From contig NZ_AHWA01000004.1 in assembly GCF_000247645.1 (NCBI RefSeq), forward strand, positions 620,001 through 684,000: 64,000 nt of DNA, given 5' to 3'. Made by a program: the position numbers and the translations under genes. Positions 40,632 to 43,798 of the stretch are shown here, in pieces. Numbering within the stretch: position 1 is the stretch's first letter; each line of letters opens with the position of its first letter. The DNA comes from Salinibacterium sp. PAMC 21357 (lineage in GTDB: Bacteria > Actinomycetota > Actinomycetes > Actinomycetales > Microbacteriaceae). The notes below the pieces were generated by a model that had not been told where the DNA came from, made no database searches, and saw only the letters and a list, made by a program, of their open reading frames with translations.

Positions 40632-40775
40632 ATGAATTTCACATGCTTTGAGCCAAGCAACACCGACATACTGTCGCGGCCCGCCTTCTCTCTGGCAATC
40701 GGACGCCCTCAACGCACCGCAAATTTTGCCCTGAGCTCCCCCATCAACTTTCATACCGAGCCGCGAGCCTCATGA
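40632..40775 (+). CDS. possible 47-residue leader ORF coupled to the kinase
   Basis: ATG 40632 has GAGGAA five bases upstream. The 47-residue product has no recognised domain or signal. Its TGA stop overlaps the kinase ATG (ATGA at 40772-40775), while the kinase itself has only a weak ribosome site, so the small ORF may couple translation. The coding nature is uncertain because composition is unremarkable and the ORF is short. Confidence 0.3.
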   Translation: MNFTCFEPSNTDILSRPAFSLAIGRPQRTANFALSSPINFHTEPRAS

Positions 40776-42250
40776 GCCCCGACGCGCTCGTTCCCTCATC
40801 AACTGCCTCGCGCCCTCAACTCGCCGAGAGAGTGTTGGCTGCATTTCCGCCAGAGGTTCAGGTGAGCCCCGCGACGGTAGCGAACGCCGCCAACGGTCGG
40901 GTTCTCATCGTCCTCGATGACGATCCCACCGGGACCCAGTCTGTCGCAGACCTGCCGGTGTTGACGCAGTGGCAGCCTCAGGATTTTCGCTGGGCATTCG
41001 ACTTGCGAGTTCCGGCGATCTACGTCCTCACCAACACTCGCGGTCTATCGGCGGACGAAGCCGCTGAGCGCAATAGACAAGTTGTTACCAACGCGACGAA
41101 AGCCTCAAAAGGCACCCCTCTAGCCTTCGTGAGCCGCGGAGACTCAACCCTGCGGGGGCATTTTCCGCTAGAAACTGATGTTATTGCTCAAACTTCACAG
41201 CGACTGAATGCGGTCAAAGTCGACGGCATCGTCATCGTGCTAGCTTTTCCCGAAGCTGGCAGGTTAACTATCGACGGCGTGCACTACATGCGCTCGTTGA
41301 GCGACGAACTCACCCCCGTAGCCGACACCGAGTTCGCTCGTGATGCGACCTTCGGCTTTTCTCACTCCCGGATAGCCGACTATGTCGACGAGAAAAGCGC
41401 GGGACGCGTTCCAGCAACTTCAGTGATCGAAATCAACCTTGCCGTCGTGCGCGCGGGGTCACTCGCGATCGCGGACGCACTGGAGGCGGCGACAGAGGGT
41501 GCCCACGTTGCTGTTGACGCCGTCACCGAGAATGACTTACGAATGCTCGCTCTCGGTCTCGCCGAGTCCGAGCGTCGCGGAAAGAACTTCGTTTATCGGG
41601 CCGGACCGCCCTTTGTGCGCGCCCGCATCGGACAAGCGGTGCGCGCCCCCCTGACTAGTGCTGAGGTGTTTGGGAAAAAAGACGTGGTGCATGGTGGCGG
41701 CCTCATCGTCGTGGGTTCACACGTCAGCACCACGACTCGACAACTGTCGCACCTCAAAGAAAACCATGCGTCCGCCTTCGTGGTGGAACTGAATGTTGAA
41801 AAGTTGCTGTCGACTCAATCTCCAGCGGAAGCCAGCGGCTACCTCGACTTAGTTGTTGATCAGATCGTAAACGCCCTGACCGATGCCGACGTCATTCTGC
41901 ACACCAGCCGCACGGTCGTGAGGACCAACGACCCGACGCGAAGCTTGGAAATCGCTCGCACTGTCTCTGCGGCGGTCGTCGACGTCGTCCAACGCATCTT
42001 GGCTCGCGCCCGGCCGAGGTTCGTCATCGCCAAGGGCGGTATTACCTCGTCAGACGTAGCGACCCACGGTCTCGCAATTCGTCACGCCATCGTTCGCGGG
42101 CCGCTGCTGCCTGGGATCGTGTCAGTCTGGGAGCCCGTCGGGGGCCCCGCAATGGGAATCCCCTACGTTGTCTTCGCCGGCAACGTAGGCGACGACTACT
42201 CACTGCTCTTAGCCGTGCGCACTCTCAGCGCATTCGCGCCGGGATCATGA
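40772..42250 (+). CDS. four-carbon acid sugar kinase (DUF1537 family, D-threonate kinase-like)
   Basis: This 492-residue ATP-dependent kinase of the DUF1537/OtnK/DtnK family has the N-terminal VLIVLDDDPTGTQS substrate motif, GDSTLRGHFPLE, the C-terminal AKGGITSSDVA nucleotide segment, and a late FAGNVGDD loop. These enzymes phosphorylate D-threonate, L-threonate, D-erythronate or oxo-tetronates. Its partner PdxA2 points to 4-phospho-D-threonate as product. It is divergent from the pdxA2-tct operon and probably co-regulated by the GntR protein. Confidence 0.87.
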   Translation: MSPDALVPSSTASRPQLAERVLAAFPPEVQVSPATVANAANGRVLIVLDDDPTGTQSVADLPVLTQWQPQDFRWAFDLRVPAIYVLTNTRGLSADEAAERNRQVVTNATKASKGTPLAFVSRGDSTLRGHFPLETDVIAQTSQRLNAVKVDGIVIVLAFPEAGRLTIDGVHYMRSLSDELTPVADTEFARDATFGFSHSRIADYVDEKSAGRVPATSVIEINLAVVRAGSLAIADALEAATEGAHVAVDAVTENDLRMLALGLAESERRGKNFVYRAGPPFVRARIGQAVRAPLTSAEVFGKKDVVHGGGLIVVGSHVSTTTRQLSHLKENHASAFVVELNVEKLLSTQSPAEASGYLDLVVDQIVNALTDADVILHTSRTVVRTNDPTRSLEIARTVSAAVVDVVQRILARARPRFVIAKGGITSSDVATHGLAIRHAIVRGPLLPGIVSVWEPVGGPAMGIPYVVFAGNVGDDYSLLLAVRTLSAFAPGS

Positions 42251-42340
42251 GAACGTGAATTTCCTCCGAGCTGCTCTCTGCCCAACTGCGCGCGAACAAT
42301 GACGAAGACCAACTTGCGACTAGTAACCGATTAGCAAAAA

Positions 42341-42378
42341 AATAACCCGAACCCAACAATCCGTGGGTTCGGGTTATT
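42341..42378 (-). terminator. strong terminator, likely the native tRNA-Ser terminator
   Basis: A perfect 15-bp stem (42341-42355 with 42364-42378) closes an eight-base loop. On the minus strand it is followed by seven T residues, so it terminates leftward transcription, such as that of tRNA-Ser. On the plus strand the tract is poor. An insertion element now separates it from the tRNA gene. Confidence 0.8.
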
Positions 42379-42399
42379 CCGATGTCTTGCGACATCACA

Positions 42400-42414
42400 T
42401 GGCGGTACCGGTGG
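42400..42414. repeat. 15-bp target-site duplication, left copy
   Basis: TGGCGGTACCGGTGG abuts the left end of the element and is identical to 43709-43723, where it is the 3' end of tRNA-Ser (CCA plus the last 12 tRNA bases, read on the minus strand). It contains the palindrome CGGTACCG. Confidence 0.85.
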
Positions 42415-42482
42415 TGTGTTCGTTCAGGACATAGGAAACGCATCTCTCGGGACATGGGAAACTTCTCAGCCACGATCAGAGT

Positions 42483-43673
42483 GTGTCCAAAGCCAAGCTC
42501 GTCATCACTGCCGTCACCCTCGAGGGTCGAACCCAAGCCGAAGTGGCCCGAACCTACGGCGTCTCAAAAGGTTGGGTGTCCAAACTCGTCGCCCGCTACC
42601 GCGCCGAGGGCGAGGCCGCGTTCGAGCCCCGCTCCAGACGACCACACAGCAACCCGAACCAAACTCCCACAACAACCATTGAGCTGATCACGACCCTGCG
42701 CAAAACCCTCGCAGCCGCAGGACTCGACGCCGGCCCAGACACCATTCGCTGGCACCTTCACCACCACCACAACGTCACCGTCTCCTCAGCAACAATCAGT
42801 CGCCACCTCACCCGTGCGGGCCTGGTGACCCCCGAGCCGAAGAAGAAACCCCGCTCCTCTTACATTCGTTTCGAAGCCGCGATGCCCAACGAAACGTGGC
42901 AATCCGACTTCACCCACTACCGCCTCGCAAACGGACACGACACCGAGATCCTGCCCTGGATTGATGACTGCACCCGCTATGCGATCCGCATCACCGCCCA
43001 CACCCGCGTCACTACCTCGATCGTGCTGGCCGAGTTCCGACAAGCCACCACAACCCACGGAATCCCGGCCTCCACGCTCACCGATAACGGCATGGTCTTC
43101 ACCACCCGCCTCTCCGGCCTCGGCCGCCAAGGCGGCCGCAATGCCTTCGAAACAGAACTCCGCCGCCTCCACATCACCCAGAAAAATGGCAGACCCAACC
43201 ACCCCACGACCCAGGGCAAAGTCGAACGCTTCCAACAAACACTAAAGAAATGGCTTCGCGCACGATCACCCCAGCCCACCACTATCGCCGAACTGCAAAC
43301 CCTGCTCGACGAGTTCACCGACGAATACAACCACCGGCGACCCCACCGCTCGCTACCTCACCAAGCAACCCCGGCCACCCTTTACTCGAGCATGCCAAAA
43401 GCCCAACCATCCGGAAGCCGCGACAACGACACCCACAACCGAATACGACACGACCGGATCGACGACTCCGGCGTCGTCACCCTGCGCATCAACTCCAGAA
43501 TGCACCACATCGGCATCGGACGAACCCACGCCCGAACCCACGTAATCCTGCTCATCCAGGACCACGAAGTCAGAATCGTCAACGCCACCACAGGGGAACT
43601 TCTCCGCGAGCTCACCATCAACCCCGAACGCGACTACCAACCCCAGAAACAAAGAAAACTCCCGAACCCCTGA
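42483..43673 (+). CDS. IS481-family DDE transposase
   Basis: This 396-residue transposase has an N-terminal helix-turn-helix pair (EGRTQAEVARTYGVSKGWVSKLVARY) and an rve/DDE integrase core: first Asp in TWQSDFTHY, second in TLTDNGM, Glu in GKVERFQQTLKKWL, then the EYNHRRPHRSL tail common to the family. The start is GTG. The stop codon lies in the loop of the hairpin at 43656-43687. The frame is intact, so the element may be active. Confidence 0.92.
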   Translation: MSKAKLVITAVTLEGRTQAEVARTYGVSKGWVSKLVARYRAEGEAAFEPRSRRPHSNPNQTPTTTIELITTLRKTLAAAGLDAGPDTIRWHLHHHHNVTVSSATISRHLTRAGLVTPEPKKKPRSSYIRFEAAMPNETWQSDFTHYRLANGHDTEILPWIDDCTRYAIRITAHTRVTTSIVLAEFRQATTTHGIPASTLTDNGMVFTTRLSGLGRQGGRNAFETELRRLHITQKNGRPNHPTTQGKVERFQQTLKKWLRARSPQPTTIAELQTLLDEFTDEYNHRRPHRSLPHQATPATLYSSMPKAQPSGSRDNDTHNRIRHDRIDDSGVVTLRINSRMHHIGIGRTHARTHVILLIQDHEVRIVNATTGELLRELTINPERDYQPQKQRKLPNP

Positions 43674-43687
43674 GGGTTCGAGAGTTT
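43656..43687. terminator. hairpin at the right end of the insertion sequence
   Basis: AAACTCCCGAACCC (43656-43669) pairs with GGGTTCGAGAGTTT (43674-43687) with one mismatch around a four-base loop. On the minus strand it is followed by TTTTCTTT, so it can terminate the tRNA-Ser transcript that has lost its native terminator. It also holds the transposase stop. Confidence 0.75.
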
Positions 43688-43708
43688 CCTATGTCTTGCG
43701 AGATCACA

Positions 43709-43723
43709 TGGCGGTACCGGTGG
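43709..43723. repeat. 15-bp target-site duplication, right copy
   Basis: Identical to 42400-42414. It restores CCA and the acceptor 3' strand of tRNA-Ser next to the insertion sequence. Confidence 0.85.
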
Positions 43724-43798
43724 GATTTGAACCCACGGTGCGCTTTCACACACACAACTTTTCGAGAGTTGCACCTTCGGCCGCTCGGACACGGTACC
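43709..43798 (-). tRNA. tRNA-Ser (CGA)
   Basis: Read on the minus strand, the acceptor stem GGTACCG/CGGTACC, discriminator G and encoded CCA frame a class II tRNA. The anticodon stem CAACT/AGTTG holds loop CTCGAAA, giving anticodon CGA for UCG. The long variable arm and the T-arm GGGTTCAAATCCC are intact. Its last 12 bases plus CCA are the element target duplication, so the mature 3' end is preserved. Confidence 0.93.

Follow-up and report, generated by a model that had tools for sequence, protein, structure and literature searches.

The 1294-bp insertion sequence described here lies in a 64,000-nucleotide stretch of the genome of Salinibacterium sp. PAMC 21357 (the whole stretch is called the window below) and, judging by its sequence, is a member of a clade of IS481-type elements, so far seen in Actinomycetota, that insert at a fixed point of tRNA genes. 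Our explanation as a whole is that this clade targets tRNA genes, rebuilds the tRNA 3′ end through its target duplication, brings a replacement terminator and regenerates its own insertion site; we regard it as very probable (roughly 0.87).

The element and its insertion site

The features of the site are as follows.

42335..42399, minus strand: right-end remnant of an older, related element, consisting of the tip TGTGATGTCGCAAGACATCGG and a terminator-like hairpin (assigned by its match to an element end from the same genus)
42341..42378, minus strand: terminator-like hairpin with 15-bp perfect arms, followed by T7, within the older remnant
42400..42414, no strand assigned: left copy of the 15-bp target duplication
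42415..43708, plus strand: IS481-type element, 1294 bp (assigned by repeat ends, termini and transposase profile)
42415..42439, plus strand: left end, terminal inverted repeat
42483..43673, plus strand: transposase, 396 aa, modelled with helical N-terminal DNA-binding parts, an RNase H-like DDE core and a C-terminal six-strand domain
43652..43690, minus strand: right-end hairpin with a T-rich stretch behind it as read from the tRNA; predicted to act as a replacement terminator
43684..43708, minus strand: right end, terminal inverted repeat, whose tip abuts the CCA of the tRNA
43709..43723, minus strand: right copy of the target duplication, equal to the end of the T-stem, the acceptor strand, the discriminator and CCA
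43709..43798, minus strand: tRNA-Ser(CGA), complete (ARAGORN; Rfam gives 43712-43798)
43724..43733, no strand assigned: GATTTGAACC, T-loop DNA beside the insertion point; putative recognition sequence

The inverted ends of the element are 25 bp long and imperfect, with the termini TGT...ACA, and they are flanked by a direct repeat, TGGCGGTACCGGTGG, which is exact at 42400-42414 and 43709-43723 and equals the last 15 nt of tRNA-Ser(CGA) (presumably tRNA positions 62-76). A preliminary description of this DNA had read the repeat as CCA plus the last 12 tRNA bases, and the exact match bears this out. Thanks to the perfect repeat the tRNA gene is whole through CCA, and the description was equally right in ascribing the intact 3′ end to the duplication, through which a DDE-type insertion sequence rebuilds it. 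The hairpin that it placed in the right end of the element, now just downstream of the tRNA, is real as well (-36.6 kcal/mol, z -6.5). Only one gene, that of the transposase, was recognised in the 1294 bp of the element, and a Pfam scan of its six overlapping frames gave no match.

A second copy in the same genome adjoins tRNA-Pro(CGG). The 15-bp repeat of this copy, CTGTCGGGGTAGCGG, likewise stands immediately before GATTTGAACC, which is the T-arm as read from the opposite strand. This copy is split over two contig ends (the end of C2 and the start of C1), which match in the duplication; the matching flanks suggest that the pieces, of 1184 and 131 bp and identical to the window copy, are parts of one copy. 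Since there are 45 tRNA genes in the 3.11 Mb of this genome, and yet both copies stand at the same T-arm base of two different tRNAs, the placement is not due to chance. The sequence GGTTCRANTC is present in 35 of the 46 distinct tRNAs called by ARAGORN in the fetched loci.

Relatives share the insertion point and orientation

Relatives were collected by keeping the best 80 of 143 transposase matches (79 loci) and by fetching extra stretches. Among these best 80 of 143, all records with a genus name are from Actinomycetota, and the others are MAGs. At E 1e-60, relatives of the transposase are found in 3 of 27 genomes of the genus and in 36 of 398 of the family. The clade set was made from 155 transposase matches of at least 40% identity, of which 5 duplicates were removed to leave 150, and the counts given below cover the fetched loci, which are part of all matches; the 40% cut was set after inspecting the data, where no match falls between 36 and 40.9%.

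Of these 150 elements, 119 have the T-arm motif at 14-17 bp, 14 have another element next to them (tandem), 9 are partial, 6 are cut by a contig end and 2 lie elsewhere. Among elements with a readable right end beside non-IS DNA, the T-arm is thus found 14-17 bp from the right tip, in one orientation, in 119 of 121. The motif is strict in 111 of the 119 and variant in 8, and its distance from the tip is 15 or 16 bp in 116 (15 bp in 69, 16 bp in 47, 14 bp in 2 and 17 bp in 1). In 95 of the 119 the neighbour is a complete tRNA gene on the opposite strand; these genes represent 26 anticodon classes and 12 isotypes in the naming of ARAGORN (Pro 22, Ser 19, Arg 14, Ala 12, Leu 9, Met 7, Tyr 4, Thr 3, Lys 2, and Gly, Phe and Asp 1 each). 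The other 24 lie at a T-arm that is not part of a complete ARAGORN tRNA; the six inspected by eye (L045, L057, L060, L078, L128 and L224) appear to be tRNA fragments. On a single Acidimicrobiales chromosome (OX638350), eight different tRNAs have a copy beside them. The duplication was located in 87 of the 109 elements with sufficient upstream sequence, being perfect over 15-17 bp in 63, and was not found in the other 22 of these 109; relatives at other tRNAs carry repeats of those tRNAs. The suggestion in the preliminary description that other copies might also sit in tRNA 3′ ends has therefore held, both for the second copy in the genome and for the relatives at the T-arm, and we did not observe the opposite outcome that it had considered, in which other copies would be scattered at random and their duplications unrelated.

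Outside chromosomes the protein search at E 1e-60 found a relative in 1 of 72,556 plasmid records, on an apparent tRNA fragment (L224), and a DNA search found one other plasmid record, with a 132-bp match at 79.7%. Relatives were present in 0 of 50,697 phage records; one was found in IMG/VR, adjoining tRNA-Pro in the same geometry. In L084 an insert of about 2.4 kb interrupts the transposase gene, and the part that adjoins tRNA-Arg retains the geometry.

The target is probably read as DNA

YGAAC is found at +5 to +9 in 115 of the 119 T-arm insertions. It is also found at +5 to +9 in the two non-tRNA sites, L012 CAACCGAACG and L124 CCATCGAACC, both of which have 16-bp duplications. Because both non-tRNA insertions keep YGAAC at the position of the T-loop, it is probably the DNA sequence that is read as target, and not the tRNA or its transcription, a reading to which the use of tRNA fragments also points. 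That the target is instead the tRNA molecule, its transcription or a bound protein appears unlikely to us: almost all sites are indeed tRNA genes, and PMC10132070 proposes that dif-hunting IS1202 relatives may contact XerC, but the two non-tRNA sites with YGAAC in register have been used too, as have the six tRNA fragments named above (one of them, L224, a plasmid locus; all judged by eye), where insertion may predate fragmentation.

The right-end hairpin as a predicted replacement terminator

When the right ends are scanned from the tRNA side, a hairpin with a T-rich stretch behind it is detected in 104 of the 119, compared with 33 of 357 shuffled sequences, and in 77 of those 104 the hairpin starts 15-29 nt behind the tip. 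Under a stricter energy limit, the scan was passed by 99 of 119 in the tRNA direction, by 14 of 119 in the transposase direction and, whichever of six offsets was used, by no more than 1 of 36 controls; for a less well placed stretch and a looser energy limit, the figures were 49 of 119 for the clade versus 4, 1 and 1 of 36 controls. T is commoner on the tRNA side of the hairpin in 109 of 110 right ends, with one tie. The scan was failed by 15 of 119 right ends (20 of 119 under the stricter limit), including all six of L177-L182.

Terminators behind transposase genes are common, and the transposase stop codon of the window element falls within the hairpin, as would be expected if the hairpin were the transposase gene's own terminator; this, or a role as an end-binding site, would make it unrelated to the tRNA. 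We consider such an origin quite improbable because of the side on which the Ts lie and the excess of the tRNA over the transposase direction in the scan, a directional bias to which, however, the constrained tip on the transposase side may add. Our preferred reading is that the native terminator has been displaced and that the right-end hairpin would now end the tRNA transcript instead; shielding the element from tRNA transcription would be an equivalent function.

An older element at the same site

The strong leftward hairpin beyond the element (42341-42378; -34.6 kcal/mol, z -7.4) had been taken in the preliminary description for the native terminator of the tRNA, but proves to belong to the right end of an element that had inserted at this site earlier. 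The stretch 42335-42400 matches the right end of L094/L236, an element at tRNA-Pro in another species of the genus, at 95.5% over 66 bp, and 42365-42414 is an 88% direct repeat of 43674-43723; from this repeat it follows that the left terminator, with the next 21 bases, is no ordinary flank but the right end of another, older element. In all 24 relatives from the genus with an identified tRNA-Ser(CGA), CCA is followed by other sequence, and most of them have a different hairpin soon past the CCA (by eye). The match to an element end, together with the absence from these 24 relatives, rules out 42341-42378 as the native terminator of tRNA-Ser. The further proposal that the tRNA transcript ended at this hairpin before insertion may well hold for the time just before the latest insertion, but the hairpin would not have been the tRNA's own. 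The comparison with empty sites in relatives, suggested at the same time, did reveal such sites, but none with the same left neighbour, a sugar kinase-like gene (40772-42250), to which there was no match among 26 relative loci. A search by blastx for transposase remnants left of the older tip (42201-42415) gave only matches of E 0.08 or worse. The likely order of events, as reconstructed from these remains, is that element 1 displaced the native terminator, that it was then cut down to its right end, and that element 2 inserted into the regenerated site.

Such successions are seen in other members of the clade. An older tip stands directly before the left duplication in 14 of the 87 elements with a located left end, and in 7 of these 14 transposase remains lie no more than 1.7 kb away. 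Counted from the opposite side, another element is next in 14 of 150, a set that overlaps with these 14 of 87. Only the tRNA-adjacent copy adjoins the T-arm, and stacks should therefore grow there alone, with the innermost copy the youngest.

Right ends that are not followed by a full element are present behind tRNA-Pro or tRNA-Leu in four other genomes of the genus.

G014: solo right end at tRNA-Pro
G015: solo right end at tRNA-Pro (no complete tRNA called)
G022: solo right end at tRNA-Pro
G025: solo right end at tRNA-Leu, with a transposase stump

In G014, G015 and G022 a transposase match was absent from the 0.7-1.5 kb fetched. The genome of the window has a solo right end too, behind a tRNA-Pro fragment. 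At this locus (L322; G000:C5:24900-29700) an intact tRNA-Pro(GGG) with a hairpin is followed, about 4 kb on, by a tRNA-Pro 3′ fragment and then by the solo right end, an arrangement that looks as if an element had integrated between a tRNA and the IS-derived terminator it once had; four frames of L322 gave no Pfam match, and an integrase was not recognised among them. Among the matches listed, tips similar to that of the clade occur at 31 places (3 repeats), 6 of which lie beside a tRNA or the 3′ part of one, while one more is a stacked copy. The others seem to belong to other IS481 elements; any transposase detected beside them is mostly 32-37% identical and outside the clade. Retained solo right ends may serve as adopted tRNA terminators.

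Controls and sister branches

As controls we used 41 IS481-type transposases of less than 40% identity, including canonical members, from a family search, with extra stretches, treated in the same way. The geometry of the clade was found in 0 of the 41. The strict motif lies within 400 nt downstream in two (L160 at 264, L193 at 87), and these distant IS481s near a tRNA have neither the CA tip nor a copy of the repeat in the register of the clade. In L193 the transposase (1562-2506; 27% identity) ends about 75 bp from tRNA-Arg. A tree was built from 118 proteins including that of the window, leaving out L002 (doubtful reading frame), L190, L192, L194 and L195, with long-branch controls removed. 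The clade is separated in it from other IS481 proteins by one branch with an SH-aLRT of 100 (88 versus 30 rows), and the clade side holds the tRNA-targeting rows plus L012 and L124.

These comparisons bear on the possibility that insertion is random and that only insertions at tRNA 3′ ends survive. Harmful insertions are lost, and many mobile elements find safe harbour in tRNA genes, but survival cannot fix a single position and orientation in 119 of 121 elements, and other IS481s of the same phylum, including the two controls with the strict motif, are not so placed, which makes random insertion highly improbable. Integrases commonly use tRNA 3′ ends, but that a tyrosine integrase left the 15-bp repeat behind as an att-like core, with the insertion sequence merely a passenger, can be practically dismissed, because the repeat directly abuts the TGT/ACA transposon ends, the Pfam scan of the transposase and the six overlapping frames found no integrase, and relatives at other tRNAs have repeats of their own tRNA.

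A sister IS481 branch (L270=L173, L271, L276, L279=L166, L282 and L288) is found behind tRNAs the opposite way round, with its left end 7-9 bp past the called tRNA 3′ end and the transposase in the same direction as the tRNA; the duplications are of 15 and 16 bp in the two cases where they were located (L271 and L279). L283 is not so placed, and about half of the 22 loci have no tRNA nearby. Another branch, with a frame of 617-626 aa (L277, L278, L289 and L290), has 15-bp duplications and, by eye, a common motif like TTGnnnnnGTAGGGAAAGT in the left flank, some 28 bp ahead of the insertion, and probably has a further specific target that is not a tRNA. L183/L286, an element of the nearest non-tRNA sister branch, lies in the palindrome CCAACCGCCGGTTGG with a 14-bp duplication.

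The transposase

The window transposase scores 237.6 bits against the IS481 model NF033577 (cut-off 224), and all 38 aligned members match this model at E up to 1e-20, on an E-value basis. Pfam recognises integrase core domains, and D142, D201 and E248, which we take to be the DDE catalytic triad, are invariant in the 38 of 38 aligned members. The TGT...ACA ends and the target duplication are as in IS481, where 15-16 bp is at the upper end of the range. Canonical IS481 members are usually devoid of a C-terminal domain, and the clade departs from their length: its proteins end near 390-420, and 27 of the 41 controls are at 300-339. We treat the clade as an IS481 variant because a sister branch also has longer proteins. 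The ISNCY_2 model, used here for IS1202 in place of IS1202 reference proteins, gave 95.7 bits against a cut-off of 250.

An AlphaFold2 model (mean pLDDT 81, pTM 0.64) has helical N-terminal parts, an RNase H-like core and a C-terminal domain of six strands (strands 319-378). The top Foldseek matches are IstA of IS21 (E 6e-16) and TnsB of a CAST (E 4e-14), with query-based TM of 0.39 and 0.36, respectively; the domains agree, whereas their arrangement does not. The modelled C-terminal domain, which most distant IS481 proteins lack by length, is possibly involved in target reading, and we regard it as a candidate, no more. TnsC, TniQ/TnsD, a Cas effector, a tyrosine recombinase and Cas1 were not found in the element, as judged from its frames and the Pfam scan.

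Discussion

As the sequences show, the elements of the clade are inserted beside the T-loop (GGTTCRA), with the same end towards the tRNA. The duplication of about 15 bp, spanning tRNA positions 62 to 76, rebuilds the whole tRNA 3′ end, and the right end presents a directional, terminator-like hairpin to the tRNA. With the site regenerated, further elements have come to stand before older ones, leaving stacks or solo right ends. The transposase itself, its gene being the only one recognised in the element, may recognise the T-loop as a DNA sequence, perhaps through the C-terminal domain; the right-end hairpin would terminate the tRNA transcript instead of the native terminator, and solo right ends may be adopted as terminators. 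More probable than not, in our judgement, is the broader proposition of a clade of single-protein DDE transposases for which the universal T-loop is a DNA address, in which the length of the staggered cut restores the gene, a directional terminator is supplied and the site is reopened, giving ordered stacks and IS-derived tRNA terminators, with the sister branch (left end 7-9 bp behind the tRNA) arriving at the same solution from the other side.

With the IS481 family the clade shares a transposase above the curated cut-off, the DDE core, TGT/ACA ends and a single recognised gene; it differs in the specificity for the tRNA T-arm and for orientation, in the extra C-terminal part and in the directional terminator-like hairpin of the right end. 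Among other mobile elements the eukaryotic transposon Ty3 also targets tRNA genes, and Tn7-like elements and CASTs have the further proteins TnsC and TniQ/TnsD. Tn7-like elements and CASTs with tRNA att sites, as described in PMC11406308, are likewise DDE transposons with TGT/ACA ends that use tRNA genes, but they need a guide RNA or further proteins, whereas one gene was recognised in the window element. The 'dif hunters' of the ISAjo2 type in the IS1202 family are, according to PMC10132070, also single-transposase insertion sequences at a fixed distance and orientation to a conserved chromosomal site, but their target is dif/pdif, their duplication is 5 bp and no gene is rebuilt; according to the same paper, IS1202 members with long duplications did not appear to target specific sites. 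Casposons, according to PMC4046053, have long duplications (median 15), some of which overlap tRNA 3′ ends, but these large archaeal elements use a Cas1 integrase, an enzyme unrelated to the window transposase. The eukaryotic tRNA-gene transposon Dada, named in PMC4046053, has tRNA targets too, but near the anticodon loop. Both Dada and Ty3 differ from the clade in enzymes, hosts and positions. Our search of the open literature found no published account of IS481 elements at tRNA genes; ISfinder, where an entry is possible, and subscription journals lay outside its scope.

The rebuilt tRNA and the apparent replacement stop signal suggest a way in which an essential gene can host a selfish element without harm. 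Transposition here is site-specific with apparently a single gene: a DDE enzyme aims at a motif common to most tRNA genes and leaves them intact, so that target choice by a lone DDE transposase becomes directly testable, and the system may offer a compact tool for insertion at safe sites. The ends of insertion sequences would be a source of new tRNA terminators and, for annotation, an apparently native tRNA terminator may turn out to be the fossil end of a transposon.
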